From: Mesorhizobium sp. NFR06
GTDB taxonomy: Bacteria; Pseudomonadota; Alphaproteobacteria; Rhizobiales; Rhizobiaceae
Assembly (NCBI RefSeq): GCF_900115245.1
Contig: NZ_FOVT01000013.1
Coordinates: 62,001-126,000, forward strand
Length of the DNA stretch: 64,000 nt
Reading direction: 5' to 3'
Positions 4,292 to 34,126 of the stretch are shown one piece after another (position 1 is the first letter of the stretch; each line of letters opens with the position of its first letter). The notes below the pieces were generated by a model. That model saw only the letters and a program-made list of their open reading frames with translations. It ran no database searches and was not told the DNA's origin. The translations under genes were made by a program, and so were the position numbers.

Positions 4292-4301
4292 CAGGTGGAG
4301 G

Positions 4302-8827: not shown

Positions 8828-8849
8828 AGATCTGAGCCGTCTCCGCCCC

Positions 8850-10827: not shown

Positions 10828-11822
10828 TTGGTGCTGCCGCCCTGCAAGCGAATTCGCGGATCAAGCAGCGCCAGCGCCAGGTCGGAAATCAGCACGCCGA
10901 TGACCGTCAGGAAGGCGAGGAACATCAGGAATGACCCTGCCAGATACATATCCTGGCTTTGCAGCGCTCTGATCAGCATCGGCCCGGTCGTTTCCAAGGA
11001 CAGCACGATCGCCGTGATTTCGGCGCCGGAGATGATGGCAGGCAGGATAGAGCCGATGTCTGAAATGAAGAAATTGAGCGCCATGCGCAGCGGATATTTG
11101 ACCAGTGCCTTGAAAGGATGAAGGCCCTTGGCGCGCGCGGTCACGACATATTGCTTGTGGAGCTCGTCGAGCAGATTGGCGCGCAGCCGCCGGATCATGC
11201 TTGCCGTGCCCCCGGTGCCGATGATCAGGACCGGGATCCACAGATGCGCGAGGATCGACTTCGCCTTGGCCCAGCTCATCGGCTCGCTGAGATATTGCAG
11301 GTCCATGAGATGGCCGATGGATGTGCCGAACCAGATGTTGGCGAAATACATCAGGATCAGCGCCAGCATGAAATTCGGAATGGCAAGGCCGAGAAGGCCC
11401 AGGAAAGTCAGGCCGTAGTCGCCCCAGCTGTATTGATGCGTTGCGGAGTACATGCCGATCGGAAAGGCGATGAGCCAGGTGACGATGATGGTGACGAAGG
11501 AAACCAGCACGGTCAGCCACATTCGGTCGCCGACGACGTCGCGAACCGGCAGCTCATACTCGAAGGAATAGCCGAAATCGCCGTGCAGCATCCCGCCGAC
11601 CCAGTAGAAGTAGCGAATGATCGGCGGTTTGTCGAAACCGTACTCCTTGCGCATCATCTGGATGCGATCGGAATCCACCGCTTCGCCCTGGGCCCGAAGC
11701 TCCGAAACATAGCTGTCGAAATAGTCGCCCGGCGGAAGTTCGATGATCGTGAACACCAGCGCCGATATGATCAGCAGCGTTGGAACCATCACAGCGATGC
11801 GCCAGACAATATATCGAAGCAC
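10824..11822 (-). CDS. ABC transporter permease, OppB/DppB type
   Basis: This 332-aa inner-membrane permease has the usual OppB N-terminus (LRYIVWRIAVMVPTLLI) and about six helices, with the EAA loop VVTARAKGLHPFKALVKYPL. It pairs with the OppC-type subunit to form the channel. The start codon is GTG at 11822, two bases after the stop of the binding-protein gene, and its end overlaps the next gene by 4 bp. This spacing marks a single tightly packed operon. Confidence 0.92.
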   Translation of the reverse strand: MLRYIVWRIAVMVPTLLIISALVFTIIELPPGDYFDSYVSELRAQGEAVDSDRIQMMRKEYGFDKPPIIRYFYWVGGMLHGDFGYSFEYELPVRDVVGDRMWLTVLVSFVTIIVTWLIAFPIGMYSATHQYSWGDYGLTFLGLLGLAIPNFMLALILMYFANIWFGTSIGHLMDLQYLSEPMSWAKAKSILAHLWIPVLIIGTGGTASMIRRLRANLLDELHKQYVVTARAKGLHPFKALVKYPLRMALNFFISDIGSILPAIISGAEITAIVLSLETTGPMLIRALQSQDMYLAGSFLMFLAFLTVIGVLISDLALALLDPRIRLQGGSTK

Positions 11823-11824
11823 GC

Positions 11825-13723: not shown

Positions 13724-15621
13724 TGGCGTAACTCGCTGACATCGGCCGAACGTCGGGCCAGCACGAGGTGGCCGCCGCCAAGATCGAGCGGCGACAGCAT
13801 GTCCTCCTCGCCCTCGTCACGGAATTGCGGTCCCCATGCGCTGCTGTCGGAAGCGCCGCTGAGCTTCAGCGTCTTGAAATCCATCGGCCGGTCGAGATCG
13901 GGGAAAGGTACTGCGGCGACCAGCGAGCGCGTGTAGGGGTGGATCGGTTTCCTAAGCAGAATTTCGCGCGGCGCGAGCTCGACGATACGCCCGCCGCACA
14001 TCACCGCGATGCGGTCGGCCATGTAGTCCACCACCGCCAGGTTGTGCGATATGAACAGGTAGGTCAGGCCCAGTTCCTTCTGCAGATCTTTCAGAAGGTT
14101 CAGGATCTGCGCCTGGACGGAGACATCGAGCGCCGAAACCGGCTCGTCGCAGATCAGCAGTTCAGGCCCCAGCGCCAACGCGCGCGCGATGCCGATACGC
14201 TGACGCTGCCCGCCGGAGAAACTGTGCGGATAGCGCTTGATGAAGCGTGGATCGAGTCCGATCGCCTGCATCAGGCTCTTGACCGTGGCGAGCCGGGACG
14301 CGGCATTGCCACGTTGGTGGATTTCCAGCGGCTCGCTCAAGATGTTCTCCACCGTCATGCGAGGCGAAAGGGACGACACCGGATCCTGGAAGACCATCTG
14401 GATTTTCGCGCGCAGCTTGCGCATGGCGTCTGCGCCGCCTGCCAAGACGTCGATCGGTCCATCGCGGCCGTTGAACGTCACGGAGCCGCCGCTGGGGGTC
14501 ACCGCCCGCATGAGGATCTTGCTGACGGTGGTTTTGCCGGAGCCGCTTTCGCCGACCAGACCCAGGCACTCACCCCGCCTGATATCGAAGCTCACGCCGT
14601 CCACGGCGCGAACGGAGCTGTGATGATCCCCGCCGAACCATCCGGACTTGCGGATGGTGAAGATCTTTTTCAGGTCCCTGACCGACAACAGGATGTCGTC
14701 CGGCCCCTTCGAAGCCGGCGCCGTCTGCTTGCCGAGCAGGTCCCCGACATTCACCGGCACCTCGCGGAGCGCCTTTAGCCTTTCGCCAGGCTTCAGGTCG
14801 AAATGCGGAACGGCTGCCATCAGGCCCTTCAGGTAAGGGTGACCCGGCCGGCGGAATATCGCCTCAACGGGTCCCGCTTCCATGATCTCGCCATGGTACA
14901 TGACCACCACCTCGTCGGCGACATTGGCGACCACGCCGAGGTCGTGCGTGATCAGCAGCATCGCCATGTTCAGCTTGGTCTGAAGCCCGCGCAGCAATTG
15001 CAGGATTTGCGCCTGGATGGTGACGTCCAACGCCGTCGTCGGCTCGTCGGCGATCAACAGGGCGGGTCGGCAGATAAGCGCCATGGCGATCATGGCGCGC
15101 TGACGCAATCCTCCTGAAAGTTCAAACGGATACATGTCATAGGCGCGCTTGGGATTGGGAAAGCCGACAAGGCTGAGCATTTCCTCGGTCCGCGCCTTGC
15201 GCTCTGCCCGAGCCATGGGCGTATGGATCTGCAGGGATTCGCTGACCTGGTTGCCGATCGTGTGCAGCGGCGACAGCGATGTCATCGGCTCCTGAAAGAT
15301 CTTGCCGATGCGGCTGCCTCTCAAGGCCCGGATTTCGGGTCCGTCACGTGGCATCTGCAGGATATCCTGCGTCGTGCCGGGCTTTTCAGGATCGGAAAAC
15401 AGGATACGGCCGCGCACATGGGCTGTATTCGGCAAAATGCCCATCACGGCCTGGCTCAGAACCGATTTTCCGGAACCCGATTCGCCCACAAGCGCGGTAA
15501 CCTTGCCGGGCAGGACGCGAAGATTTGCGCGCCTGACGGCATGCAACGGTCCCCCGATAATGGCAAAAGAGATGCCAACGTCTTCGATCCGCAGTAGATC
15601 AAAACCCGAATTCATCCTCAC
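13720..15621 (-). CDS. ABC transporter ATPase, fused OppD-OppF type
   Basis: This 633-aa protein has two complete ABC ATPase domains in one chain. The first has Walker [13 protein letters not shown], signature [12 protein letters not shown] and Walker [13 protein letters not shown]. The second has Walker [13 protein letters not shown], signature [15 protein letters not shown] and Walker [13 protein letters not shown]. Both look catalytically intact. The domain order matches a fusion of OppD and OppF, which powers family-5 importers. It is the first gene of the operon, 139 bp downstream of the cyclase gene on the same strand. Confidence 0.93.
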
Positions 15622-15760: not shown

Positions 15761-17101
15761 TTATTGGAGTTTCCTCGGGTCGCCTGCCGACAGCCGCGCA
15801 GCATCGCGGTGAAGCAGCATGACCTGCTCGGCATCCGACCTTCGATCGTAGATCGGCTCCATCGCACCGTCTTCGTCGAGTGCGAGAGCACCCGACAGAT
15901 CGGGTGAAAGCACCGTCAGCTTCTGCTTGATGCCCGCCAGTTCCTCGGCGCCGAGCGTCAGCCAGCTGTTATCGCCGCAATAGCTGGCGAAGTCTTTGCT
16001 GGCGAGAACGCTGTGCGGATATTTCTTGGTCAGGGTCTGGAGGCGCTGGACCTCGTTCACAGCCGAGCCGAAGACCGAGAACGTCAGTCGGTCGGTAAGC
16101 CCGACATTGCCGAACATCACATTGCCGACATGCAGGCCGATGCCAAATTTTATGTCGGACAACCCGTTTTCCTTTCGGCGCAGATTGAGATCCGTCATCC
16201 GCGCCGTGGCCTTGTGCGCTGCCGCGAGAGCAGCCTGGCAGGCGATCTCGGACTGCGAGCGGTGCCTTTCGCAAGGGTACACGGCAATGAAGCCATCGCC
16301 GATGAAGCTCATAATCTGACCGCCGCTGCGATTGAAGGGGGCAGCGACCGCGTCGAAAAACTGGTTCAGCGTATCGATATAGATTTCGCGGCCGGAGGTT
16401 TCGGCGAGCCTTGACGACCCTCGCATGTCGCCCATGACCAGTGCCGCCCGGATTGTATCTCCGTCGCCGCGCTTGATCTGACCGTCAAGGACGCGCCTGC
16501 CGGCATCGCCGCCGAGATAAGTGGCCATCATGTTGTCGGCGAGCTTGGTGAGCACCGCCATCTTGGTTGCGATGGCGAGATGGCTCTGGATGCGCAGCAG
16601 CGCCGAAATCATGCTGTCGCTGAAGCCAGCGGCACTGTCGGTGGACCAGGACCCCATCATGCCCTGACTGGTGTTGCCGTTGAAGGGAAGGACGAAAGCC
16701 ATGTAATCGGTGACGCCCATAAGCCTGAGTTCATCGAAAACAGGAAACTCCGACGGCACCGACGTGTCGAGCCGGCGCCGCAGATGGTCGAGCTTGTGGC
16801 TGAGCAGATGGTAGTATGGGCTGGTCAGGAACCTGTCGGACGCCACGCCGGCCTTTTTGCGGAAGCTTTCCACTTCAAGGCCCTGGCCGCGAAGCCAGGT
16901 GAACCCAAGCGCGTCATAAAGCGGGTGGAGCATCGAAAAGCTCAAATGCACCCGCTTCAGCGGCAGGCCGGCGGCAGCCAGCCGTTCGCAAAAGCCTTTT
17001 ACCAATGTCTCCAGGTCATTGCCCGCCAGCGCCGATTGGTTCAGCCAATCGGCAACCTTGTCCATGAGAATGGTGGAAATTTCTGCTTGCGCTGTGCCCA
17101 T
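15761..17101 (-). CDS. Class III cyclase with uncharacterised N-terminal domain
   Basis: This 446-aa protein has an N-terminal half (about 1-200) that I cannot assign to a family but that looks like a globular sensor (FSMLHPLYDALGFTWLRG). A class III cyclase domain occupies about 215-400. The metal-binding Asp are in VMGDMRGSSRL and SFIGDGFIAVYP, and the N/R pair is in SAVNEVQRLQ. The central part is predicted active. The ATG at 17101 (MGTAQAEIS) is preferred over an ATG-less extension to 17170. It reads toward the OppDF operon, and 198 bp separate it from the sugar dehydrogenase gene. Confidence 0.88.
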   Translation of the reverse strand: MGTAQAEISTILMDKVADWLNQSALAGNDLETLVKGFCERLAAAGLPLKRVHLSFSMLHPLYDALGFTWLRGQGLEVESFRKKAGVASDRFLTSPYYHLLSHKLDHLRRRLDTSVPSEFPVFDELRLMGVTDYMAFVLPFNGNTSQGMMGSWSTDSAAGFSDSMISALLRIQSHLAIATKMAVLTKLADNMMATYLGGDAGRRVLDGQIKRGDGDTIRAALVMGDMRGSSRLAETSGREIYIDTLNQFFDAVAAPFNRSGGQIMSFIGDGFIAVYPCERHRSQSEIACQAALAAAHKATARMTDLNLRRKENGLSDIKFGIGLHVGNVMFGNVGLTDRLTFSVFGSAVNEVQRLQTLTKKYPHSVLASKDFASYCGDNSWLTLGAEELAGIKQKLTVLSPDLSGALALDEDGAMEPIYDRRSDAEQVMLLHRDAARLSAGDPRKLQ

Positions 17102-17368
17102 GCTATCTCGCAACCCGTCGAAGACGGAGCCATTATCCTTTGATCCGCCATAACACAGTCCGCCAGCCACCCAAAGCTTAGCCCCCCGAAGTCAACGAAA
17201 CGTGCTTCGGCAGCAAAAGCGTCGAGCAATTGCCCGGACGACGGTCCTTGCGGCAAAGGAGCGAACGCAACTGCATCCATGTTCTGCCGGCCTTATGTGG
17301 CGAGGCCGCCGGCGGCGTGCAACCACGATCCTGACACCGGGGCAAAAAAATCGCCGGCTCAGACTCCG

Positions 17369-18826: not shown

Positions 18827-20005
18827 TCAGACCGGCACCTTCGCCTTCAGGCTCGCGGCAGCCATCGCATAGCCGCCGGCGCCGCCATCGATGAAGTGAA
18901 CGTGGTCGCGTTGCAGCGGCGAGGCGACGAGGCATGTCATCAAGGCCGATTTCTGGCGGTGAAGGCCATAGTTGCAGATGCCCGCCGCTTCCGCCTGCTT
19001 CAGCCGGTTCTCGATCTGTTGCAACACATCCGCGTCAACGTCGATGGTCATCTTCAAGCCGTCGTCGAACTTCCGGAAGTCCGAATTGCTGGCCACTTCG
19101 CGTTTGTAGATCTTCGGGTCGAAACCGCCGATGGTCCAGCCATATCTATCGGTGACGGCCGTAAGCGTCATCAGGAACAATATCCATAGCTTCGACCGCC
19201 ACCGCCATCCTGCCGGCGCAATGGCCCGCGCCTCGATATCGAGGCCGGCGGGCCAGAAACTGTAGCCTGGCCCGTTCACCGGCACCGGGTGGCCATCGCG
19301 TTCCTGCCTGCCGGCAAGGGCGATGATGTCGGAAACCAGTACCTGAAAATCGCGCGAGTCGCGCGACGCCCCCGGTATGGCTATGATCGAGACGATTTCA
19401 CCATGCCTGGCTTCGATCGGGTTCCAGCGGCAGGAGAGGCCGGTCAGATCCGGCCGCGCGCCGGCCGGCGCGGGATCGATGCGGTAGCGCCCCGCTTTCA
19501 TCTCGGCTTCCGCCCAACTGCCGCCACCGCCGGCGAACATGGCATAGAAGACCGCTTCGGAGGCCTGGAACCGCGCCACGCGAACATCGAGGCCTTGTGC
19601 TCTTATATCCTTTATCGGCACGATTGCCGCACGCAGGGTCAGGTCCAGTTCATCCGCCACCCATCGCTGCACGGCGGCTAGCGCGTTGCGGATTTTCTCC
19701 ATCGCCGAGCCGGGAAACGCCACGAGCGCGCCGTCGCCGCCGAAAACAAAGGGAAGATCTTGCCGACCCAGCGTATTGAGCAGCGCCGAAATGACGCTGG
19801 CGCCGGCCATATTGACGGTTTTGTAGTGCCCAGCCTCGATCGCCTTGGTCGAGCCCACGATGTCGGCGGTGGCCAGCGCCCAGCCATCGGGCAGCGGCCG
19901 ATAGTTGTCTATGTCGGCGACGCTTTCGAACTTTGCGAAGACCGGCAGAGAAGCGACGAACGCGTCAGTTGCGACAGCTGTTTCCATGAGCATCAGATAG
20001 CACAT
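18827..20005 (-). CDS. DUF3095 cyclase-like protein
   Basis: This protein of up to 392 aa belongs to DUF3095, whose N-terminal part resembles a class III cyclase. The first metal Asp is in LATADIVGSTKAIEAG and the second in VFGGDGALVAFP, but I cannot find the usual N/R transition-state pair. Either it is catalytically altered or the positions are different. The second half has one hydrophobic stretch (LWILFLMTLTAV). Three in-frame ATGs (20005, 19993, 19987) are possible starts, and the ribosome site is weak at each. It is divergent from the glycosyltransferase gene at 20080. Confidence 0.82.
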   Translation of the reverse strand: MCYLMLMETAVATDAFVASLPVFAKFESVADIDNYRPLPDGWALATADIVGSTKAIEAGHYKTVNMAGASVISALLNTLGRQDLPFVFGGDGALVAFPGSAMEKIRNALAAVQRWVADELDLTLRAAIVPIKDIRAQGLDVRVARFQASEAVFYAMFAGGGGSWAEAEMKAGRYRIDPAPAGARPDLTGLSCRWNPIEARHGEIVSIIAIPGASRDSRDFQVLVSDIIALAGRQERDGHPVPVNGPGYSFWPAGLDIEARAIAPAGWRWRSKLWILFLMTLTAVTDRYGWTIGGFDPKIYKREVASNSDFRKFDDGLKMTIDVDADVLQQIENRLKQAEAAGICNYGLHRQKSALMTCLVASPLQRDHVHFIDGGAGGYAMAAASLKAKVPV

Positions 20006-20079: not shown

Positions 20080-21168
20080 ATGCGAATTGCCTTCTACGCG
20101 CCGCTGAAGTCGCCCAATCATCCCGTTGTCTCCGGCGACCGCCAGATGGCACGGATGCTGATCAAGGCGCTGGAGCACGGAGGCCACAGCGTCGAACTTG
20201 CATCCGAATTGCGCTTCTATCTACGCGAACCGGAGTCGAAAAGTTTCGATGCGCTCAAGATCGAGGCTCGAGAGGAAGTCGCGCGGCTGACAAGGCTTTG
20301 GCACCGTGACGGCAAGCCCGGTCTCTGGTTGTCCTACCATCCCTATTACAAGGCGCCCGACTTGGTCGGGCCCGCGTTGGCCTCGGCCTTTGCTGTCCCC
20401 TATGTGACGGCGGAAGCCTCCTATTCGAGGCGGCGCAACGCCGGTTTGTGGGCCGATGCGCAGGCGTCGGTGGCGCGAGCCATCGAACAGGCGGCGCTCA
20501 ACATCTGCTTCACGCAAAGGGATCGTCAGGGACTGGCGGATGCGATACCCGGCGCCGCTCTCGGCATGCTTTCGCCCTTCATCGACACATCGGCATTCCG
20601 GGAAAAGCCGGCACGGGGTTGTCCGACGCGCCTTGTTACCGTTGCCATGATGCGCCCGGGCGACAAAGTCGAAAGCTATCGCATACTGGCGCAGGCGCTC
20701 GGTTCGATAAGCCACTTGCCCTGGACCATGTCGGTCGTCGGCGACGGGCCTGCCCGTGAAGAGGTCAAAGCGCAATTCGCCGGCTTGCCGGCCGGCCGTA
20801 TCGAATGGCTCGGCGCGATTGAGCCAGCCGCCGTGCCGGATGTCCTCTACAGTGGCGGAATTTACGTCTGGCCGGGTTTCGGCGAGGCCTATGGCGTCGC
20901 CTATCTCGAAGCGCAGGCTGCCGGCCTTCCGGTGGTGGCCCAGGACATCGCCGGCGTGCCGGAGGTCGTGCGCGATGGCCGCGCCGGATTTCTCACCCCG
21001 CCGGGCGATGTCGCCGCGTTCGCTTCCGCCATCGAAAGGCTTCTGGCCCGTAACGACGAAAGAACCATCATGGCCGCCGAAGCCAGACGTTTCGTCCTCG
21101 AAGAACGTTCCCTTGCTGCTGCGGCGGCGCGTCTGGCCGACTTTCTTGCGAAGATCCCGGTTTCATGA
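20080..21168 (+). CDS. Glycosyltransferase family 4
   Basis: This 362-aa GT-B glycosyltransferase is presumably cytoplasmic. The C-terminal half has the GT4 retaining signature GFGEAYGVAYLEAQAAGLP (E-x7-E) followed by VAQDIAGVPEVVRDGRAGF, which binds the sugar nucleotide. The donor and acceptor are not evident. Its end overlaps the start of the deacetylase gene by 4 bp (ATGA), so the two are translated together, implying that an N-acetylated sugar is added and then deacetylated. Confidence 0.9.
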   Translation: MRIAFYAPLKSPNHPVVSGDRQMARMLIKALEHGGHSVELASELRFYLREPESKSFDALKIEAREEVARLTRLWHRDGKPGLWLSYHPYYKAPDLVGPALASAFAVPYVTAEASYSRRRNAGLWADAQASVARAIEQAALNICFTQRDRQGLADAIPGAALGMLSPFIDTSAFREKPARGCPTRLVTVAMMRPGDKVESYRILAQALGSISHLPWTMSVVGDGPAREEVKAQFAGLPAGRIEWLGAIEPAAVPDVLYSGGIYVWPGFGEAYGVAYLEAQAAGLPVVAQDIAGVPEVVRDGRAGFLTPPGDVAAFASAIERLLARNDERTIMAAEARRFVLEERSLAAAAARLADFLAKIPVS

Positions 21169-21926
21169 CATCCGACCGGATCTGGCAACCCTTGGTGGAA
21201 GAACTGGCGTCCCTGCAGCGCGCCGACCGCAAGGTAGAGTTCTGGCTGCGCGACGATGACGCCGTGGACCCGACGCCTGCGCTTGATCGGCTGCTCGGCC
21301 TCACAGGTGAATTCGCGGTTCCGGTCACTCTGGCCGTTATTCCGGCCCTGACGGATGAGAAGCTTGTTGCCCGGCTTGACCAGGCGCCGCACGCCACGGT
21401 CGCCGTCCATGGCTGGGCGCACCGAAATCATGCGCCCGAGGATCAGAAAAAGCAGGAACTCGGCCCGCATCGGCCACGCGAGGCGGTGCTCGACGACCTG
21501 ACTCGCGGGCTGGCGCGCGTAACCGGCCTGCACGGCGCACGTGCCGTTCCGATGCTGGTGCCGCCTTGGAACAGGATCGACGCCGGCTTGGTACCCGACC
21601 TTGGATCGATAGGATTTGCGGCATTGTCGGTTTATGGGCCGCCGAAGCCGGCTTCGCTGGCGGTCATCAACAGCAATGTCGACATTATGGATTGGCATGG
21701 CACTCGCGGATGCCGCGATCATGCCACGTTGGTTCAAGCAATCGCCGCGCAATTGCAGGATGCGTTCGACGGCGGCGAACCGGTCGGCCTGCTCACACAC
21801 CATCTCGTACATGACGAATCGGCCTGGCTTTTCCTCGAACGGCTGTTCGCGGTCACCGCGCGGGCTGGAGCCTGCGCCTGGCTTCCGATCAGGACATTGA
21901 TCGGGCGCCACGCGTCCAGCGCATGA
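21165..21926 (+). CDS. Polysaccharide deacetylase-like protein (CE4/NodB fold)
   Basis: This 253-aa protein has a NodB-like core. The metal motif is seen as WLRDDDAV (Asp-Asp) and VHGWAHRNH (His-x3-His), and a late LLTHHLVHD supplies a further His. It should hydrolyse an acetyl group from a sugar or a similar amide. There is no signal peptide, so the substrate is probably a cytoplasmic lipid- or nucleotide-linked glycan. The stop codon lies inside a family A repeat (21919 onward). It is translationally coupled to the GT4 gene upstream. Confidence 0.83.
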   Translation: MTSDRIWQPLVEELASLQRADRKVEFWLRDDDAVDPTPALDRLLGLTGEFAVPVTLAVIPALTDEKLVARLDQAPHATVAVHGWAHRNHAPEDQKKQELGPHRPREAVLDDLTRGLARVTGLHGARAVPMLVPPWNRIDAGLVPDLGSIGFAALSVYGPPKPASLAVINSNVDIMDWHGTRGCRDHATLVQAIAAQLQDAFDGGEPVGLLTHHLVHDESAWLFLERLFAVTARAGACAWLPIRTLIGRHASSA

Positions 21927-22190: not shown

Positions 22191-23039
22191 TCAGCGCTCG
22201 TTGTGCAATGGAAGTTTGAGCGTCTGGCCGTCCCGTGCGGCAAATGCGCCGGCAAACCTGTCTTTGGCCAGTTTCTCGATTTCGTCCAGTTGCTCGTCGG
22301 TGCGTGTCGGATCGTGGTGAAACAGCGCAAGCCTCCGCGCGCCGGCCGCCTCGCAGAGCTTGACGCCGTGATCCCATGTCGAGTGCCCGTCACCGCGGTG
22401 GCGCTCCATTTCCTCCTCGGTGTAAGTGCAGTCGTAAATGACGAGGTCGGCATCTTTGATGAGGCCGAGCACCGCCGGATCGAGTTTGTCCGGCTGGTGC
22501 TCGGTGTCCGTGATCACCGCGACCGCGCGGCCGTCCCATTCCACCCGGTAGCCTATGCAGCCGCCCGGATGGGTAAGACTGGCGGTTCGGACCACCACCC
22601 CTTCGCGCGGCCGAAGCACGTCTCCGGATACGAAATCGCGGAAGTCGAGGCTTGCCTTGCAGATATCCAGTTTCACCGGAAACCACGGCGGCCGCATGAA
22701 CTCGTCGACCATCTGCCGGGTCGTCATGCGTCCTGCAAGATGTCCGGACCAAAGCGCAAGCTTGACGCTCCGGTCATAGATCGGTGCGAAAAATGGCAGC
22801 CCGATGATGTGGTCGTAATGGCAATGGGTGAAAAGCAAGTCGAAATCGGTCACGCCCGACGCCCGAAGCGAGCGGCCGGCGGACCGTAGACCGGACCCCG
22901 CGTCGAAGAGAAGCGTATGCTTGCCGCATCGCATCTCGATGCAGATCGTGTTGCCGCCATAGCGAGAGAATTCTGGCCCCGATACCGCAATACTCCCGCG
23001 CACGCCCCAAAACTTGATCAGGAAAACGTCGTCGTCCAT
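22191..23039 (-). CDS. MBL-fold metallo-hydrolase
   Basis: This 282-aa protein has the metallo-beta-lactamase fold. The metal motif is FTHCHYDHIIGLPFF, with a later DTEH (Asp/His) and FHHDPTRT. The N-terminus KFWGVRGSIAVSGPEFSRYG is that of the PhnP/phosphodiesterase-like branch. A phosphodiester, perhaps a cyclic nucleotide, is a plausible substrate given the cNMP-binding protein 74 bp upstream, but this is inference. The ATG at 23039 has GAAGGGG 5 nt upstream. It is the last gene of a three-gene operon with the CNB and ABC-like genes. Confidence 0.88.
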   Translation of the reverse strand: MDDDVFLIKFWGVRGSIAVSGPEFSRYGGNTICIEMRCGKHTLLFDAGSGLRSAGRSLRASGVTDFDLLFTHCHYDHIIGLPFFAPIYDRSVKLALWSGHLAGRMTTRQMVDEFMRPPWFPVKLDICKASLDFRDFVSGDVLRPREGVVVRTASLTHPGGCIGYRVEWDGRAVAVITDTEHQPDKLDPAVLGLIKDADLVIYDCTYTEEEMERHRGDGHSTWDHGVKLCEAAGARRLALFHHDPTRTDEQLDEIEKLAKDRFAGAFAARDGQTLKLPLHNER

Positions 23040-23113
23040 GCTACCCCTTCGCAGTCCGGTCGCCCATGGTAGCCAGTGCCATCACGACGGCGAGATTAAG
23101 TGCACGTCAGTCG

Positions 23114-23563
23114 TTATTTGCCGCTTCGTGCGTCGATTAGGTCGGCGGTCGTATGGTTCAGGCGATCGGCAAGAACCCGCACCATCTCGATGGTCATTTC
23201 CGGGAACTCCCTCATAAGCCTCAGGAAATGATCCTTGCGGATCCTCAAGGCTTCCAGTTGAGATGCCGCTCTGACGGTGGCGGTGCGGGAGCTGTTGCAC
23301 AATATGGCGATCTCACCGACAATCGAATTTGGCGCCAGCTCGGCGACCTTGATCGGTCCGCTGTCGGAATCGACCAGGATATCCGCCCGGCCTGAAAGGA
23401 TGACATAGGCGGCGTCTCCCTCGTCGCCCTGCCGGAAAAGGATTTGGCCGGCGCTGTAGCTCACGCGATCGGATGTAAACGCAAGCAACTTGAGCTTCGT
23501 CGGCTCTATGCCAGAGAACAAGGGAACGCGTTGCAGCATTCCAACCTCATCCTTGAGCAGCAT
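23114..23563 (-). CDS. Stand-alone cyclic-nucleotide-binding domain protein
   Basis: This 149-aa protein is almost entirely one CNB domain (residues about 12-130) with a short C-terminal helix and no DNA-binding domain. The phosphate-binding cassette reads NSIVGEIAILCNSSRTATV, with the Gly-Glu and Arg that contact the ribose and phosphate of cAMP or cGMP kept. It is therefore a likely cNMP receptor that acts by protein contact, not as a Crp-type regulator. It lies 27 bp downstream of the pseudo-ABC gene and 74 bp upstream of the MBL gene, so its partner is probably one of these. Confidence 0.9.
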   Translation of the reverse strand: MLLKDEVGMLQRVPLFSGIEPTKLKLLAFTSDRVSYSAGQILFRQGDEGDAAYVILSGRADILVDSDSGPIKVAELAPNSIVGEIAILCNSSRTATVRAASQLEALRIRKDHFLRLMREFPEMTIEMVRVLADRLNHTTADLIDARSGK

Positions 23564-23590
23564 TGTCGCAACCTTCCCAAAATCGTTGCT

Positions 23591-26305
23591 CTATGAAAGC
23601 AGTTCCTTGAGGATACCGTTCCCTGCCAAAAGTGTCTCGTGTGTTCCGTCTTCCACCAATTGACCCGAGTCGAAGACGATAACGCGATCGAACATCATCC
23701 CCATCGACGGATTCGTCACGACCCATATAATAGCCGGCGAATGACCATCGCGTCTGGCTTCCTCGAGCACGTTTCGCAGCACCTTCTCCTGCATGCGCTG
23801 GTCGAGCGCCGACAACGGCCGGTTGAGGATGAGAAAATCGGGACGCTTGAGCAGGGCCCGGGCAACATCGAGCTTCTGTCGCTGTCCACTGGTCAGCCGC
23901 CTGCCGCCGGAGCCGACGTTGAAGTCCAGGCCGACATCCAGAACCTCGGCATAAAGCCCCAGTTCGTCAAGAATGTCATAGACGATGGAGCGTATGCGGT
24001 CCGGCGCGTCGGGATGGTTGTTGCCCACACGCCCGAACAGGACATTGTCCATGACGGTAGCCGCGGCAATGTATTTGGCGGGATCATACCGTTCGACCGC
24101 GTTTTGCAGCTCGGGCGGCAGGTTTTCGTAGAACCGGTTGCGTGCGGCGACGATCTTGCTCATCAGCTCGTCGCTCAATAGGCCGAAGCGGTGCCGGGGC
24201 TCGATATAGGCAAAGCTCAAGGTGACGATCATGGCGCGGTCATTTTCGGCAACCGCCTCGTACGGACGGTTCTTGAGCCGTTGCAGCAGGGTTTCGTAAG
24301 CGGGTATCTCCTCGGCGCTCATGAAGGCGAGCTGCTGGAAGAACTGGTGATCGGGCGGCAGGTCGGCAAACAGCTCGATCGCCTGCTCGGCGATTTCCAT
24401 GCCCATTTCATAGAGCGTGCGGTCGAGGCCTGCTTGCCTCAGCACTGAAGCAAAATAGGGATTGGCCGCCAGAGCCCTGTCGGCCAGTTCGGGGCCGGCG
24501 GCAGCGCCGAAGAGCAGGTTTTGGCCGATCGTCGCTTCCTTGTTGTAGGCGCCCGGTTCGAAAGGAACCACCAATCCGCTCAGCCCTTCGTGTTCCAGCC
24601 GGGTTCGAAGCGTCGCTCGCAGTTCGATGATCCGCCTGGCAAGCTCCGTGTGACGCGTGAGGTCGGCCGAAGAGCGCAAGCCAAGATCCAGAATGTCGCG
24701 CGACAGAACAACCGCGTCGAGCACCCTGCGCACGGCTTCAAAAAGGTCGCTCGGGCCGGTAGCGCCGACGGAAGCATAGTTGATCCAGTCGCTGTTGATA
24801 TCAAGATCCGAATTGCCCGACCGGAGCGCCTCGTTGATGTTCCAGCGGCGCTGGGCTGCCGCAACACCGTCATAAGTCACCGGTGTCAGCGGCGCATGCT
24901 TCAGCCCGTAGAGCAGGTTATCGCGCAGGCTTGCCTGGAACAGGAAAACATCCGACGAGGCATAGGACATGCGCCGCCCGGTCACTGCTTCGGGGAGTTC
25001 ATGCAGGTCGTCGGCGCCCGAGGCGACCCTTCCGCTGGCCGGCCAGTTCAGCCGCGCGAATGCTTCTGCAAGCGCCTCCGCTCCACCTGTCGCGGTACTG
25101 ACCAGCGCCACCGTCTCGCCCGGCTTGACCTGGAGGGAGATACGGTTAAGCAGCATTGCACCGCCATCGTCTGCTATGGACAGGCTGATCGCCGACAGCG
25201 GCTGGGTCATCGGAGCGGGATCGTCGATCGCCAATGCCCCGATTCTCGGCGCAATGAGGCCCTCGACGGTAAACTGTTCAACGACCTGCTGATATTTGAC
25301 CTGGACATCCTGCCGCGCCTGATCCCAGTCGATCAGTTCCTTCATCGGTCCGGGCAGGTCCTTGTAGGCGCTGATCACGGCTACGAGCTGGCCGACGTCC
25401 AGCCGCCCCTGGATGACCAGATACCCGCCGATCATGTAGAACAGAAAGGGCGTGAGCTGCGCCAGAATATTGTTGAGGAACTTCACCATGAATTTCCATT
25501 GGTAAAGATCGAAGCGAATCTTGAAGATAAGCCCGAGCCGGGCAGCTATGTCGGCGCGCTCGTAGTTTGATGTATCGTGGACGTGAACCGCGCCGATGCC
25601 GTCGACGATTTCGCCAACCCGGCCCGAGAGGGCGCGTGCCGTCAACTGCCGTTCGCGCCCGAGCACGATGAGCCGTCGCCGCATTCGCGGGATGAGCACG
25701 ATCTGGATCAGCACGATCACGACCGCTATCATTCCGAGCCAGAAGTTCTGGACCATGATGAACAGCATGGCCGTCAACGCCTGGCCGCCGAGCAGCACCG
25801 GCTGCAGGAAGGCATCGCCGATGAAGCCGCCCAGCGGCTCCACCTCGTCCTTCACCATTGTCGCCACTTCGGCGGATTTCACCCGCTTGAAGTAGACCGG
25901 CGGAAACCGCAGCACACGATCGACCAGATCGAAGCGGATACGCCGCAGCATGCGTTCGCCGAGGCGGCCCTTGTAGGTGTTGATGTAGAGTTTGAAGAGG
26001 CCGTTGATGATGACCAGCAGGAGGAACACGACGCTCAGGGCAAACAGCGTCGCGGTGCGGTCGAGCTGAAAACCGGAGAAGAACTGGACCTCTCCAATGA
26101 ACGGCAGGTCATAGTGTAGCCTCATGAACGGATGGGTCGCGCCCGGTTGCTCGAAGCCGCGACCCTGGATCGGACCGTTGACGATCAACTTCGGCAGGTC
26201 GAAGGACAAGAAATACGGGATCATCGAAAGCAAGACGATCAGCAATATCCAGATCTGCTGCTTCTTGGTGTGCTTCCAGATATAGCGCGCTAGGCTGGGT
26301 TCCAT
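23591..26305 (-). CDS. ABC-exporter-like protein with degenerate ATPase and large insertion
   Basis: This 904-aa protein has an exporter-type six-helix membrane domain (residues 1-370) and a C-terminal ABC domain (about 375-904). The motifs are degraded. Walker A reads ALVSTATGGAEAL with no Gly-Lys-Ser/Thr (about 400-412). The Q-loop Gln is Ser (SYASSDVFLF). The signature is LTSGQRQK (about 804). Walker B is FLILNRPLSALD, with Asp to Asn and Glu to Arg (about 824). The H-loop His is Asn (VVTNPS, about 865). Between the Q-loop and the signature there is an insertion of about 280 residues. ATP hydrolysis is very unlikely by family rules. I chose the ATG at 26305 because the membrane domain starts there. 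The CNB gene follows within 27 bp. Confidence 0.88.
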   Translation of the reverse strand: MEPSLARYIWKHTKKQQIWILLIVLLSMIPYFLSFDLPKLIVNGPIQGRGFEQPGATHPFMRLHYDLPFIGEVQFFSGFQLDRTATLFALSVVFLLLVIINGLFKLYINTYKGRLGERMLRRIRFDLVDRVLRFPPVYFKRVKSAEVATMVKDEVEPLGGFIGDAFLQPVLLGGQALTAMLFIMVQNFWLGMIAVVIVLIQIVLIPRMRRRLIVLGRERQLTARALSGRVGEIVDGIGAVHVHDTSNYERADIAARLGLIFKIRFDLYQWKFMVKFLNNILAQLTPFLFYMIGGYLVIQGRLDVGQLVAVISAYKDLPGPMKELIDWDQARQDVQVKYQQVVEQFTVEGLIAPRIGALAIDDPAPMTQPLSAISLSIADDGGAMLLNRISLQVKPGETVALVSTATGGAEALAEAFARLNWPASGRVASGADDLHELPEAVTGRRMSYASSDVFLFQASLRDNLLYGLKHAPLTPVTYDGVAAAQRRWNINEALRSGNSDLDINSDWINYASVGATGPSDLFEAVRRVLDAVVLSRDILDLGLRSSADLTRHTELARRIIELRATLRTRLEHEGLSGLVVPFEPGAYNKEATIGQNLLFGAAAGPELADRALAANPYFASVLRQAGLDRTLYEMGMEIAEQAIELFADLPPDHQFFQQLAFMSAEEIPAYETLLQRLKNRPYEAVAENDRAMIVTLSFAYIEPRHRFGLLSDELMSKIVAARNRFYENLPPELQNAVERYDPAKYIAAATVMDNVLFGRVGNNHPDAPDRIRSIVYDILDELGLYAEVLDVGLDFNVGSGGRRLTSGQRQKLDVARALLKRPDFLILNRPLSALDQRMQEKVLRNVLEEARRDGHSPAIIWVVTNPSMGMMFDRVIVFDSGQLVEDGTHETLLAGNGILKELLS

Positions 26306-26582: not shown

Positions 26583-27257
26583 ATGATGGATGTCACGCAA
26601 CCACGCAATGCCGGCATGGACGGGCACGAGCAAGCCTTGGACCTCACGCGGGGGATTGCCGCCTACCTCAACGACCCTCTCGTGGCAGGGCTGGCGCGCG
26701 TCATCGCCAAGCATCCGAAGGCCGATATCGCCAACGCCTTTAACCACAAGCAGGTCGCCTGCAAGATGTGGGCGCTCGACAAGCTGTTCGAAAGCTGCGG
26801 CGGCCGGTTCGGGCGCATATGGGTTCTGGGTGGCTGGTACGGCGTGTTGCCGGCAATGCTTTTCAACGACGCCCGCTTCGACATCGTGGCGGTCGATAGC
26901 ATCGACATCGATCCCGAAGTCGCGCCGGTCGCCAGGACCTTCAACCGGGAAGCCGGCGACCGGTTCCGGGCGCTGACGGCCGATATGTACGCGCTCGACT
27001 ACGCGGCCGGGCGGCCCGACCTGACGGTCAATACGAGTTGCGAACACATAGCCGATCTGCGCGCCTGGCTTGCTCTGCTTCCGCAGGGTACGAATGTTCT
27101 GCTGCAATCGAACGATTATTTCAGCGAGCCGACGCACGTCAACTGCGTGGCTTCACTTGCGGCTTTCGAAGCAATGGCGGCGCTACGGGAGGTGCGGTTC
27201 TCCGGCGAACTGCCGACAAAAAATTACACGCGCTTCATGCTGATCGGATCTGTCTAA
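26583..27257 (+). CDS. SAM-dependent methyltransferase-like protein
   Basis: This 224-aa protein has a Rossmann-like motif, RIWVLGGWYGVLPAMLF, followed by an acidic loop VAVDSIDIDPE, which fits SAM binding. The Gly-rich turn is unusual, with Trp-Tyr in place of the common Cys-Gly or Ser-Gly. The acceptor is unknown. The two adjacent ATGs at 26583 and 26586 are the likely starts; the upstream frame to 26334 is open but lies opposite the ABC-like gene start region. It sits between the ABC-like gene (divergent) and the Rid gene. The TAA stop touches a family C repeat. Confidence 0.75.
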   Translation: MMDVTQPRNAGMDGHEQALDLTRGIAAYLNDPLVAGLARVIAKHPKADIANAFNHKQVACKMWALDKLFESCGGRFGRIWVLGGWYGVLPAMLFNDARFDIVAVDSIDIDPEVAPVARTFNREAGDRFRALTADMYALDYAAGRPDLTVNTSCEHIADLRAWLALLPQGTNVLLQSNDYFSEPTHVNCVASLAAFEAMAALREVRFSGELPTKNYTRFMLIGSV

Positions 27258-27798: not shown

Positions 27799-27894
27799 TC
27801 TAGAACAATTCCAGGAAAAGTGTGACACGGGAATTGTGTCAAAACAAAGAGATAGAGCGTTTCGCCATTTCCGTGAAACGGTGAAAAGCTCTAG
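27799..27894 (+). repeat. Palindromic intergenic repeat, family B copy 2
   Basis: This matches the element at 22077-22177 with a shorter first hairpin (CAATTCC..GGAATTG) and a full second hairpin (GCGTTTCGCC..GTGAAACGG). Its ends are TCTAG and GCTCTAG. The right end supplies the TAG stop of the glycosyltransferase gene on the minus strand (27891-27893). Confidence 0.9.
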
Positions 27895-29102
27895 GATCCC
27901 TGGTCTGTTTGATCGTGTGCTTTTCCAAAACCGGGCCGTGTTTTCAGGCACCAGGTTCGATACCGCTCGCGCAGGATTTGCGCCGAGTGACGCGCGCCTT
28001 CCAGATCGAGACGATGCGCGGATGGCGTCGGTGCCGCAAGCGCCTGTTCGATCGCTCGCGCCAGACCTTCAGGCGTTAGGTCATTTTCCGTCAGTACGGT
28101 TGCCAGACCGAGTTCCCCGAGCATCAGGGCGCGAACCGTCTGCTCGGTTTCCCCGCCGGCTGCAAACGGAACGAGCAGGGAGCGACAACCCGCGCGCAGG
28201 ACATCGCAGACCGTGTTGTAGCCCGCCTGCGAGACCGACAGGCGGGCACCGGTAAGCAGGCTGGCGAAATCCTCGCGGAACCTGAAGATGGACAGCCCCG
28301 GCGTGGCATCGCGTGCGATCGCGTCAAACTCGTCCTTCGGCAGGTTTGGACCGGTGATCAAACACCATTTCCAACCGTTGCTGGCATGCCGTGCCGCCGC
28401 GATGGTGGAGCTGACCAGGACCTTTCCGGCAGCCCCGCCGCCAACCGACACCAGAACGTCGAAGCGCTCGGAGGCCGCGGGCGGAGGCGGCGCGGCAACA
28501 AGCCCCGTGTAGGTGATCTCGGCCTTGATCGTCCCAGCCAGTGGAAATGTCCTGTCGATGGTTGCGAAAGCCGGATCGCCGTGGACCATGACAAGGTCGA
28601 AGTGCCTGTTGATGAGATCGACCGTCTCCTCGTTTCGGCCTGGCTTGACGCGCTCCTGGAGGATATCGCGGACGGACGTTGCCAGCAGCGGCCTGGGCGA
28701 CGTCGCGTCGATGGCTTCGATCAGCGGCAAGAGTTCGAAACGCATCTGCCGGCGTCCAAATGGAAACGCCTCGATAATGACGATGTCAGGCCGGCAATCC
28801 CGGAATGCCTGCAGCAGCATCTGTGAACGCGATTTCTTGAAATCATCATCGATGGATTTGCCCTGCAGATCGACAAGTTCGGAAAATCCTTCATCACCGG
28901 AGGTGACGGGTGGCAGGATTACGGATTTTACCCCCGGTCCTGGAAACCCCGCGACCGGCGCTCCGCCGGTCACGACGGTTACGTCAAACCCGTCATCGGC
29001 CAGAGCCGCCGCAATGCGGCTGGCGCGCGCGAGGTGGCCGATGCCGAGCAGGTGCTGGACATAGAGGAAGGCGCGCAGCTGCTTCAATCGGCGGCCCGCC
29101 AC
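27891..29102 (-). CDS. Glycosyltransferase, MurG-like (COG4671 type)
   Basis: This 403-aa GT-B protein has the N-terminal signature YVQHLLGIGHLARASRI of the predicted-glycosyltransferase group COG4671. A MurG-like C-terminal donor-binding part follows (VSVGGGAAGKVL, LSVSQAGYNTVCDVLRAG). Donor and acceptor are unknown. The start is GTG at 29102, which overlaps the end of the previous glycosyltransferase gene by about 19 bp. The stop codon lies in a family B repeat. It is the third gene of a three-glycosyltransferase operon that starts at 31544. Confidence 0.88.
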   Translation of the reverse strand: MAGRRLKQLRAFLYVQHLLGIGHLARASRIAAALADDGFDVTVVTGGAPVAGFPGPGVKSVILPPVTSGDEGFSELVDLQGKSIDDDFKKSRSQMLLQAFRDCRPDIVIIEAFPFGRRQMRFELLPLIEAIDATSPRPLLATSVRDILQERVKPGRNEETVDLINRHFDLVMVHGDPAFATIDRTFPLAGTIKAEITYTGLVAAPPPPAASERFDVLVSVGGGAAGKVLVSSTIAAARHASNGWKWCLITGPNLPKDEFDAIARDATPGLSIFRFREDFASLLTGARLSVSQAGYNTVCDVLRAGCRSLLVPFAAGGETEQTVRALMLGELGLATVLTENDLTPEGLARAIEQALAAPTPSAHRLDLEGARHSAQILRERYRTWCLKTRPGFGKAHDQTDQGS

Positions 29103-30328
29103 TCGCGCTCGAACAGCTCCTTGAGCTGCCCAATGCTTGCCATATGATCGAAATTGCCGCGCACGCGCCGCTCAGCGGCCTCGCCGAGGCGGGCGCGCAG
29201 CACAGGATCACGGATCAGGCGCTCCAGCGCCTGTGCCAGGGCAACCGGGTTTTCCGTCGGAACCAGCAACCCGGTCTCATCCGGCAACAAAAGCTCCGGC
29301 ACGCCGGAAATATCGGTCGACACGCAGGCAAGCCGCTGGCTGGCAGCCTCCACGAGAACATTCGGCAGACCGTCGCGGTCGCCATTTGCGGTGATCCTGC
29401 AGGCCAGCGCGAAGATGTCGGCGCTGCGGTAGTGCTCGAGTACCTGCTCCTGAGCAAGCGCTCCTTTCCAGGAGACGCGACCGCTCAGTCCGAGCTTTTG
29501 CGCCAGCGCCCTGAGCCGTTCCAGTTTCTCGCCGTCGCCGATATGCTCGAAACGCCACGCCAAATCGCCGGGCAAGAGGGCAAGGGCCTCCAGCAAGGTA
29601 TCGTAGCCTTTCTTTTCAACGGCGCGCCCGACGCTCAAAATGACAACCGGTTCGTCCGGCGCCGAGCCGTCATGCTGTTTTCGCGCGCCGCCGAAACTGC
29701 CGAAGCGATGAAGGTCGAGCCCATGGTAGCTCAGATGCACTGACGAGTTGCCGTTGGCGAGTTCTTTCAGACGGTCGAAGCCGGTCTTCGTGCAAGTGAC
29801 CGTCCAGCGCGCAGAGGAAAGCTTGCCAGCCAGATCCCAGTCCGCCGAAGTCCAGATGTCCTTGGCGTGGGCTGAGCAGCTCCAGGGCAGGCTACGAAGC
29901 TGGCTGGCGTAGCGGGTAACCGATGCCGGCGTGTGCGCGAAATGCGCATGCAACCATTCCGCGCCTTCCGGCCATTCGGCCGCCAGCACGAGCGCTTGCC
30001 CGAAGCGGCGCGCGCGATTGCGCGTAAAGTCGCGAGGGATATCGCTGGCCAGCGATGCGAGCGCGCGCCAGAAGGCCGGTCGCGGCAGATAAGCAAACAG
30101 CGAGCGAAGCACGCGCAGCGGCTCTTGATGCAGATATTCCGGCAGATAGTGGACGGGCGCTTTGATCTCGTCATGCACGGGGTGGCGTTTTGCGTCGGTT
30201 GGCCGCCTGAGCGCGACCAGTATCAGGTCGAACCCCGCTCGCTCCAGACCGAGCAGTTCCTGCGCGATGAAGGTTTCCGACAGCCGCGGATAGCCCTTCA
30301 GAACCACGACGATCTTGCGATTTTGCAA
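29084..30328 (-). CDS. Glycosyltransferase family 4
   Basis: This GT4 protein of about 414 aa has the donor-binding half VVILSVGRAVEKKGYDTLLE and the signature region GDRDGLPNVLVEAASQRL (E-x7-E-like). I chose the TTG at 30328, with GAGGGA 9 nt upstream, over a TTG at 30346 which has no ribosome site. Both overlap or abut the end of the upstream gene (stop at 30330). It is the middle gene of the glycosyltransferase operon and probably acts in sequence on the same glycan. Confidence 0.88.
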   Translation of the reverse strand: MQNRKIVVVLKGYPRLSETFIAQELLGLERAGFDLILVALRRPTDAKRHPVHDEIKAPVHYLPEYLHQEPLRVLRSLFAYLPRPAFWRALASLASDIPRDFTRNRARRFGQALVLAAEWPEGAEWLHAHFAHTPASVTRYASQLRSLPWSCSAHAKDIWTSADWDLAGKLSSARWTVTCTKTGFDRLKELANGNSSVHLSYHGLDLHRFGSFGGARKQHDGSAPDEPVVILSVGRAVEKKGYDTLLEALALLPGDLAWRFEHIGDGEKLERLRALAQKLGLSGRVSWKGALAQEQVLEHYRSADIFALACRITANGDRDGLPNVLVEAASQRLACVSTDISGVPELLLPDETGLLVPTENPVALAQALERLIRDPVLRARLGEAAERRVRGNFDHMASIGQLKELFEREWRAAD

Positions 30329-30329
30329 G

Positions 30330-31544
30330 TCAGTTGATTCCCTCAATGACCGACAGGTGATGGCCGGCCCGCCGGTCGAGCAGTTCCGCGACGATTTCGG
30401 AAATATGAGGCAGCCCTTCCAGCGTCAGATGCGGATTGCTCTGTGAGGGGCGGGGCCGGTTCGGCAGCGCCACCAGCGCATCGGCAAACCGTTGGGAATC
30501 CTTGGCTTCCTCGGGCAACAGCATCTCGACGAGGCCGAGCTCGGCTGCTCGCCGGGCTCGGATCAATTGTTCCTCGCGGGGCTCGATGCGCGGGACGATC
30601 AGCGCCGGCTTGTCGAAAGACAGTATCTCGCAATAGGTGTTGTAACCGCCCATCGCCACCACCGCCTTGGCGCCGGCAATCAGGTCTTCCATGCGGTTGT
30701 CGAACTCGATGATCTTGATGTAGGGGATCTTGGCCCCCTTCTTGAGCAGCTTGTTGCGCTTGCGCGCCGGCATGTAGGGCCCAAGCACGATCAGCGCCCT
30801 ATGCTGCAATTGTGGATCCTGCTGATAGGCATCGACGACGTCGTGGATCAGTTCGGCGCCGTCACCCCCGCCACCGGTGGTAACGAGGATATACTCGCCC
30901 TCGGGCCGGTGGCCGGGCAATTCGTTCCGTTGCAGGCTGCGTTGCAGGAAACCGACGAACCTTATCTTTGCCCTGATAGCGGGAGGCACATCCAGGCCGG
31001 TCAACGGATCGTAGAAATCCGGCGGACCATAGGCCCAGATCTTGTCGTAGAACAGGCCTATCTTGCGCATCACATCCCTGCGCGCCCACTCTGCCTCGAG
31101 CAGATGCGGCGCATCCATCACCTCGCGCAGGCCAAGCACGAGCGTGGTGCCGCGCGTTTTGAGGTAGGACAGCGTGTCCTCAATCTCGCCGCGCAGGCCG
31201 AGCGGCTCCTTGTCGACGATGAAGATATCCGGCCGGAAGCTCTCGGCCGTGTGGCGGATGATCGACTGGCGCATCCTCAGCGTCTCATGCAGATCGATAT
31301 CCTTTTCCAGCGAGGTGTATTCGCCGTTGCGCAACTTGATGACGCTGGGGATCTTCACGAAGTCGACTCGAGCGCGGTAATCGAAGGCGCCGGCGATAGT
31401 CGCACCCGAAATTATGAGCACCTGAAGCCCGCGGAAATCCTCGACCAGCGAATGCGCGATCGTCCGGCAGCGCTGCAGGTGGCCGAGCCCGAACGTGTCG
31501 TGGCTGTACATGAGAATTCGAGCGTTTTCTGCGTGCTGGGTCAT
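30330..31544 (-). CDS. Glycosyltransferase, MurG-like (COG4671 type)
   Basis: This 404-aa protein is related to the product of 27891. It shares the N-terminal signature (MYSHDTFGLGHLQRCRTIA) and the C-terminal VVAMGGYNTYCEILSFDKPA, where a Gly-rich turn binds the nucleotide. Two paralogues in one operon suggest two related sugar additions. It is the first gene of the operon; the pseudogene remnant lies just upstream, and the ATG at 31544 has a modest purine run before it. Confidence 0.88.
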   Translation of the reverse strand: MTQHAENARILMYSHDTFGLGHLQRCRTIAHSLVEDFRGLQVLIISGATIAGAFDYRARVDFVKIPSVIKLRNGEYTSLEKDIDLHETLRMRQSIIRHTAESFRPDIFIVDKEPLGLRGEIEDTLSYLKTRGTTLVLGLREVMDAPHLLEAEWARRDVMRKIGLFYDKIWAYGPPDFYDPLTGLDVPPAIRAKIRFVGFLQRSLQRNELPGHRPEGEYILVTTGGGGDGAELIHDVVDAYQQDPQLQHRALIVLGPYMPARKRNKLLKKGAKIPYIKIIEFDNRMEDLIAGAKAVVAMGGYNTYCEILSFDKPALIVPRIEPREEQLIRARRAAELGLVEMLLPEEAKDSQRFADALVALPNRPRPSQSNPHLTLEGLPHISEIVAELLDRRAGHHLSVIEGIN

Positions 31545-33394: not shown

Positions 33395-34126
33395 TCATGC
33401 GCCCCGTTTGATCGGGAACTGGAACACGTTGGAGTATTCCTTCTCGGCGAAGCCGTAGGACTGGCCGGCAATCTGTTCCAGCTTGTCGCGATCCCTCACC
33501 GTGATGTGACCACGCGTGGCGCGGATCACGCCGACGCCCTCGAGCATCTGCACCGCCAGCGTTACGCCGGGACGGCGCGTGCCCAGCATGACGCTCATGA
33601 ACTCGTGCGTGATAGGCAAGTCGTCACGCTCCAGCCGGTCATGGGTCATGAGCAGCCACCGCGCCAGCCGCTCTTCAATGGAGTAGCCGGCGTTGGCATA
33701 GGCCGTCTGGCTGACCTGCACGATAAAGGTGTGCACGAAGCGCAGAAGCAGGGCGCGCAGCGTGAGGCTCTGGTCCATCGCCGCGTGAAGTGCCTCCGCC
33801 CCTATGCGCACGGCTTCTCCAGAAGCCTGGACCAGGCAGGTGTGCGGCGAACGATCCACGCCAAGCACGATGGGGACACCCACAAGACCCTCCGATCCGA
33901 CCATGCCGACCTCGAACCGTCCTTCCCCGGTGTCGGCGACGATTGAGGCAACCCCAAATTCGGGGAAGGTGACGTGCGCGATCTTCTGGTCGGCTCTGAA
34001 CAGGTGTTCGCGCACCTCAAACGTAACGGCCTCGAGATGCGGCTGCACCAAGGCAAAGTCGTCCGGCGATAGAGATGCCAGCAGACGATTGCGAATGACT
34101 GATTGCTGAAAGTGAGCCATGCTCAT
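33395..34126 (-). CDS. Crp/Fnr-family transcriptional regulator
   Basis: This 243-aa regulator has an N-terminal effector domain (about 15-140) of the CNB fold and a C-terminal winged helix with LGTRRPGVTLAVQMLEGVGV. The cAMP-contacting Gly-Glu/Arg pair is not evident (VGSEGLVGVPIVLG), so cNMP binding is doubtful; other members of this type answer to oxygen, NO or unknown signals. The likely start is ATG 34126, or the second ATG 6 bp later. Confidence 0.88.
   Translation of the reverse strand: MSMAHFQQSVIRNRLLASLSPDDFALVQPHLEAVTFEVREHLFRADQKIAHVTFPEFGVASIVADTGEGRFEVGMVGSEGLVGVPIVLGVDRSPHTCLVQASGEAVRIGAEALHAAMDQSLTLRALLLRFVHTFIVQVSQTAYANAGYSIEERLARWLLMTHDRLERDDLPITHEFMSVMLGTRRPGVTLAVQMLEGVGVIRATRGHITVRDRDKLEQIAGQSYGFAEKEYSNVFQFPIKRGA

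Follow-up and report, generated by a model that had tools for sequence, protein, structure and literature searches.

The window analyzed here, a 64,000-nucleotide stretch of Mesorhizobium sp. NFR06 (contig C13:62001-126000 of the 6.16 Mb genome), encodes an ATP-binding cassette (ABC) exporter-like protein that has lost its ATPase motifs—hereafter the pseudo-ABC protein—and, directly downstream, a stand-alone cyclic-nucleotide-binding domain (CNB). Comparison across Alphaproteobacteria supports the view that the two form a conserved, sometimes fused pair. We put at about even chances a reading in which the CNB binds a cyclic nucleoside monophosphate (cNMP) and thereby controls the ATPase-dead exporter within a glycan pathway, with a local writer and eraser of the signal in some lineages. 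A metallo-β-lactamase (MBL)-fold hydrolase follows the pair in the window, and the three open reading frames (ORFs) lie on one strand with gaps of 27 bp (pseudo-ABC/CNB) and 74 bp (CNB/MBL), in agreement with the arrangement described in an earlier note on this DNA. The genes and their motifs are as follows:

23591–26305, minus strand: pseudo-ABC exporter, 904 aa, with transmembrane domain (TMD) and nucleotide-binding domain (NBD) fold, ATPase motifs lost
25067–25108, minus strand: degenerate Walker A ALVSTATGGAEALA, residues 400–413 (Lys absent in 37/37 Rhizobiaceae sequences)
24905–24958, minus strand: first 'NLLYG' helical-segment motif, residues 450–467
24506–24550, minus strand: second 'NLLFG' repeat, residues 586–600, within the NBD insert
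24032–24076, minus strand: third 'NVLFG' repeat, residues 744–758
23792–23902, minus strand: degenerate signature and Walker B (RRLTSGQRQ...LILNRPLSALD), residues 802–838
23114–23563, minus strand: stand-alone CNB, 149 aa, without a helix-turn-helix (HTH)
23279–23317, minus strand: phosphate-binding cassette of the CNB, G83-E84 ... R93-T94-A95
22191–23039, minus strand: MBL-fold hydrolase (PF12706), 282 aa, fold phosphodiesterase-like or RNase Z-like

The pairing was followed through two sets of loci (designated L…, with genomes designated G…), one of 80 genome-contig loci, mostly from Mesorhizobium, and one of 79 class-wide loci from Alphaproteobacteria. A CNB lies directly downstream of the ABC gene on the same strand in 80/80 loci of the first set; a survey of relatives, as the earlier note had proposed, thus found the neighborhood conserved. 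Of the 79 class-wide loci, 65 have the CNB next to the ABC gene and 10 have it fused to the ABC C-terminus (together 75/79), and the other four show no CNB within the stretch fetched, one of them sitting on a 5-kb contig. Pfam confirmed the fusion for L227, L237, and L291 (the last outside the 79). All 10 fused loci belong to one clade of the tree, and many independent fusion events were accordingly rejected. Synteny is high within Mesorhizobium, as would be expected if these were unrelated genes, neighbors by chance in a slowly rearranging region; however, adjacency kept across a bacterial class is more than chance, and the ABC–CNB link, which holds at 46–50% ABC identity, becomes a gene fusion, and persists while other neighbors change, already contradicts that explanation for these two genes. 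We regard it as extremely improbable. The layout seen in the window was also considered as a universal operon and rejected, given that MBL varies in position or is not found and that ABC–CNB gaps reach ~320 bp. The pseudo-ABC family is itself accessory: 57/121 genomes from the GTDB family and 113/337 from the class carry it, and a phylum sample of 349 genomes gave matches only inside the class at E 1e-60. Three genomes of the same genus lack the ABC gene, and the same three lack MBL; one further genome, G228, carries the ABC gene but shows no linked CNB and no PF00211 cyclase.

In the 904-aa protein, Pfam gave only ABC_membrane (PF00664, 67.8 bits) and a weak ABC_tran (40.1 bits), and no C39 peptidase domain was found. 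The earlier note had called the exporter degenerate, and the window protein bears this out at each motif: Walker A reads STATGGAEA, Walker B LILNRP, the H-loop TNP, and the signature LTSGQ. Among 37 Rhizobiaceae ABC sequences (46–76% identical to the window protein), Walker B has lost its acidic residues and the H-loop its His, and variants such as LTxxQ stand in place of LSGGQ. The class-wide loci (n = 79) are intermediate: Walker A frequently reads GxxGSGK[E/D], Walker B reads NEA or SEA, and the H-loop His is present in 24. No family member (0/116) has a complete ATPase motif set, none (0/116) has LSGGQ, and a single one (1/116) has a Walker A of the form GxxGxGK[S/T], whereas 110/116 retain the 'ENLLFG' motif and 114/116 the 'DNILFG' motif. 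Retention of the repeat motifs alongside decaying ATPase motifs points to a functional protein that abandoned ATP hydrolysis, rather than a pseudogene under decay.

The predicted structure fits this view. The NBD fold is kept, with model residues 363–903 matching the ComA NBD at Z 26.9 (2.3 Å over 239 residues); the NBD alone was used, since the model (mean pLDDT 71.9, pTM 0.57) is mostly above 80 there and poor in the transmembrane part. An insert of ~280 residues between the Q-loop region and the signature is built of helical-segment repeats: a profile comparison of residues 560–720 with 718–815 gave 98.8% probability (E 7.7e-17, 76 columns), and the first helical segment likewise matches. 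Loss of the motor, with the TMD, the NBD fold, and an enlarged helical region kept, suits a role as switch or scaffold better than one as a pump. The protein might instead be the degenerate member of a heterodimeric exporter and pair with an active half encoded at another site, with transport still driven by ATP, and degenerate sites are indeed common in such pairs (TM287/288, MsRv1273c/72c; PMC12038006). The annotated neighborhoods showed no linked active partner of exporter type, however, and with Walker A, Walker B, H-loop, and signature all lost in the window protein, little is left for a composite site; we consider this explanation quite unlikely. A second family with the same kind of repeated NBD insert and a very divergent transmembrane part (~860–1016 aa) was seen at L287–L290 (genomes G584, G403, G576, and G696), and at L287 the next gene after it encodes a protein of 832 aa that has an MBL domain at its C-terminus and an unassigned N-terminal part.

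The partner of the pseudo-ABC protein is a plain CNB: Pfam finds cNMP_binding (PF00027) at 80.5 bits against a gathering score of 27.5, with no second domain, and the protein stops at 149 aa with no C-terminal HTH found, which speaks against a Crp/Fnr transcription factor, a reading that was rejected. The Gly-Glu/Arg contacts that the earlier note had read in this domain are in place (G83-E84 and R93), within a phosphate-binding cassette of the form G-E ... R-x-A, GEIAILCNSSRTAT. Every one of the distinct unfused CNBs (86/86) retains the cassette G[ED]...R[TSN][AS], with Asp in place of Glu in a few, and the nearest sequences in the PDB include protein kinase A (PKA) regulatory subunits and the cyclic nucleotide-binding protein 5d1i. 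From these residues, we infer that the CNB binds a cNMP. The residue after the cassette Arg is Thr in nearly all CNBs; by comparison of PKA with PKG, Thr there tends to favor cGMP, which leaves cAMP as one candidate ligand among others. Against TIGR03896 (cyc_nuc_ocin), the window CNB scores 44.2 bits, far under the curated cut-off of 161.05. A CNB-only protein at L223 (22809–23273) is labeled a Crp/Fnr family transcriptional regulator, and its relatives lack an HTH. The window also holds a separate regulator near the module (33395–34126) with a CNB and a Crp-type HTH.

Putative writers of the signal lie close by. The earlier note had counted five cyclase-type genes, and all are present, with PF00211 matches at ~1485–1997, 2543–3034, 8306–8719, and 16025–16441 and a DUF3095 protein at 18827–20005. 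The two nearest the pair are:

15761–17170, minus strand: class III nucleotidyl cyclase (PF00211), co-localized, directly beside the pseudo-ABC gene in some relatives
18827–20005, minus strand: DUF3095 protein bearing DIVGS and GGDG motifs like those of cyclases, co-localized in Rhizobiaceae

The genome has 28 PF00211 matches, four of which fall in C13:63-78 kb; four within 15 kb anywhere occurred in ~0.16% of random placements. Class-wide, 12/79 loci have a class III cyclase no more than 3 kb away (same-strand in 11 of them), against ~1.3 expected from the density in 25 such genomes (279 matches in ~99 Mb), a ratio that is approximate because the density used Pfam and the loci a profile of our own. 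Cyclase proximity changes state at least seven times on the tree, so the association has been gained or lost repeatedly. The order pseudo-ABC, CNB, MBL, cyclase occurs on one strand in L231, L281, L283, and L284. The complete cNMP circuit proposed earlier therefore stands in part—cyclases are enriched and the four-gene run recurs in four genomes—but MBL is not core. The DUF3095 protein (438 bits), which travels with the cyclase and MBL in Rhizobiaceae, is possibly an uncharacterized nucleotidyl cyclase. The three further class III cyclase domains at 1485–9000 (that at 2543–3034 with TPR repeats and that at 8306–8719 with DUF5939) lie outside the class-wide module.

The earlier note had assigned the module to an unspecified membrane or export process and missed its main partner, a conserved glycosyltransferase (GT) cluster. 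The neighbors concerned are:

27891–31544, minus strand: three glycosyltransferase genes (designated GT28, GT29, and GT30 here) upstream of the pseudo-ABC gene, conserved partners
20080–21926, plus strand: GT4 glycosyltransferase (GT20, 20080–21168) and polysaccharide-deacetylase-like protein (21165–21926), conserved partners
9646–15621, minus strand: Opp-type ABC system with permeases, family 5 binding protein, and an ATPase with intact motifs, conserved partner
26583–27257, plus strand: ORF opposite the pseudo-ABC gene, annotated as an S-adenosylmethionine (SAM)-dependent methyltransferase in Sinorhizobium meliloti, a neighbor in Rhizobiaceae

Homologs of at least three of the four GTs lie near the pair in 45/79 class-wide loci, with the polysaccharide-deacetylase-like gene in 35/79 and the Opp-type ABC ATPase in 37/79; outside Rhizobiaceae, this set of genes is usually divergent from the ABC–CNB pair. 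The GT count from the tree was left unused, every Rhizobiaceae row there being labeled GT-positive by default. The linkage to glycosyltransferases suggests that the output is a step in a surface glycan or glycolipid. A matching gene set lies on pSymB of S. meliloti, where the CNB is annotated as a Crp/Fnr regulator, an annotation contradicted by the lack of an HTH. The S. meliloti msbA homolog SMb20813 (PMC10945364) is probably this pseudo-ABC gene. It was not possible to assign the NCR-peptide and KPS data for smb20804/smb20805 (PMC5539429) to this cluster, and they were left out of account; SMb20811 is mentioned in PMC6180224 as a spontaneous variant only.

Taken as a mechanism, the core would be a two-part membrane regulator, in which an ABC-exporter fold with a non-ATPase NBD is joined, also in the unfused forms, by the CNB as its cytosolic regulatory subunit. 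The CNB would bind a 3',5'-cyclic nucleotide (cAMP or cGMP) and, once ligand-bound, act through the C-terminal side of the dead NBD (the fusion site in one clade) to shift the transmembrane state. This change may gate or scaffold the synthesis, flipping, or export of a cell-surface glycan, presumably one made by the linked glycosyltransferases and deacetylase, and in Rhizobiaceae and some other lineages a neighboring class III cyclase would supply the signal locally and an MBL phosphodiesterase remove it. A bolder form, which we hold only tentatively, is that a cyclic mononucleotide directly gates an ATP-independent ABC-exporter fold (channel, flippase, or scaffold) throughout the class, that this fold evolved from a pump that lost its ATPase and in which the helical (coupling) segment multiplied, and that it controls a surface glycan with its own cyclase and phosphodiesterase in several lineages.

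Several observations pull the other way. In many Mesorhizobium, 150–320 bp separate the ABC and CNB genes, which leaves their co-transcription uncertain; 64/79 class-wide loci show no cyclase within the fetched region, and 34/79 lack the GT set. The MBL protein scores 40.5 bits against the cNMP phosphodiesterase model NF041851, far under its 400-bit cut-off, and its structure model (pLDDT 85) ranks RNase Z/ZipD first (Z 26.6), at least as good a match as the cAMP/cGMP phosphodiesterase YhfI. The cassette is decayed in 5/11 fused CNBs and partly changed in a sixth (L225, L233–L236, and L291), where ligand control may thus be altered. Finally, the CNB domain carried by the ABC exporter HetC binds ppGpp rather than cAMP (PMC10986499). 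This last point, along with the decay in fused members, favors a CNB that senses another ligand (ppGpp, for example, as proposed for HetC) or serves as a plain protein–protein module; on the contrary, the PKA-like cassette is nearly invariant in the 86 unfused CNBs and cyclases are enriched nearby, and we think this alternative unlikely.

The putative eraser is the MBL protein. This 282-aa protein carries Lactamase_B_2 (PF12706, 73.2 bits), and its metal ligands H72, H74, D76, H77, H157, D178, and H241 are invariant in 23 MBL sequences. PF12706 enzymes with HxHxDH include proven cNMP phosphodiesterases—Rv1339 and its relatives (PMC9293780) and YhfI, which prefers cAMP/cGMP (PMC9117128)—and an eraser role for MBL is on that account plausible. 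The model matches YhfI at Z 25.4 (235 residues, 2.7 Å) and a Brucella MBL with bound GMP at 22.1, and Apyc1 is among its Foldseek matches; the RNase Z and YhfI fits are too close to choose between on modeled structure. The earlier note had placed the protein in a phosphodiesterase-like branch; RNase Z structures fit at least as well as YhfI.

MBL could then act on a phosphodiester of a glycan or nucleic acid, RNase Z-like or PhnP-like, with ABC and CNB still a real regulatory unit and the cyclases adjacent for another reason. Besides the first-ranked RNase Z/ZipD structure, the best NCBIfam matches are RNase Z (TIGR02651 at 71.6 bits, under the cut-off of 292.95), MBL often adjoins deacetylase and GT genes, and it is found in just 7/79 class-wide regions, compared to 72/80 genome-contig loci. 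Weighing on the other side, the order ABC–CNB–MBL–cyclase recurs in four genomes, one from another family, relatives elsewhere are fused to a receiver domain and as such are signaling proteins, and the genome has a better RNase Z candidate of its own at C5:46990, so that MBL is not supported as its tRNase Z. We see in this alternative a serious possibility, though one we lean away from. MBL is a frequent Rhizobiaceae addition and not core, most loci outside that family being without it. Its placement varies, lying ahead of ABC in six loci (e.g., L073, L081) and 2.4–2.9 kb downstream in seven (e.g., L064, L071), and it was not found within the fetched flank of eight (e.g., L061, L062, L068). 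A search for MBL–CNB fusions outside Alphaproteobacteria found receiver–MBL fusions instead; the nearest MBL relatives there (L207–L222, ~410–450 aa) have an N-terminal receiver-like domain and are response-regulator MBL hydrolases.

No paper on an exporter of this ATPase-dead type together with a CNB turned up in the open-access literature, subscription literature being outside the search. The evidence suggests a known type of arrangement, in which the receptor for a second messenger is joined to a membrane protein of the export type, here an ATPase-dead ABC exporter fold with a CNB. HetC of Nostoc PCC 7120, a PCAT-type ABC exporter whose N-terminal CNB is needed for function, likewise joins an ABC exporter fold to a CNB domain but differs in its C39 peptidase, essential ATPase, and N-terminal position of a ppGpp-binding CNB (PMC10986499). 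Nor is a glycan, cyclase, or MBL operon described for HetC. In NHLM bacteriocin export, too, a CNB protein (TIGR03896) is associated with ABC export genes, but these are peptide exporters with working ATPases, unlike the pseudo-ABC protein. A functional analogy is offered by PelD, Alg44, and BcsA, c-di-GMP receptors of the Pel, alginate, and cellulose systems, in which a second-messenger receptor is built into the machinery for a glycan; these systems differ in messenger, receptor fold, and membrane protein, and no homology is claimed. For the pseudo-ABC protein itself, SUR1/SUR2 provide an analogy as an ABC exporter fold serving as a non-pumping regulator, but SUR retains nucleotide binding and has no CNB subunit. 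The MBL protein resembles the atypical class II cNMP phosphodiesterases (Rv1339, YhfI, CpdA of Corynebacterium, Apyc1) in PF12706, its HxHxDH di-metal site, and its fold, while its identity to YhfI is ~20% and its own phosphodiesterase activity is putative.

These genes bear on a wider question of cyclic-nucleotide signaling in rhizobia. Rhizobia have ~28 nucleotidyl cyclases, to judge by the 28 PF00211 matches in the present genome and by Sinorhizobium, which has 28 putative cyclase genes and a Crp-family cAMP/cGMP receptor, Clr (PMC10127613), which shares a CNB domain with the window protein but has the DNA-binding domain that the latter lacks. Rhizobial cyclase outputs described so far run mostly via Crp-type transcription factors. 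The graded decay of the ABC motifs, which runs from a Walker A still reading GK[E/D] in many alphaproteobacteria to its complete loss in Rhizobiaceae, provides a series from pump to non-ATPase membrane protein that makes the role of a dead ABC exporter directly testable. If the proposed mechanism is true, a CNB wired to a membrane protein of a glycan locus would be a non-transcriptional output, giving a job to some of the orphan cyclases, and would represent an undescribed route from a cyclic-nucleotide signal to a cell-surface process.

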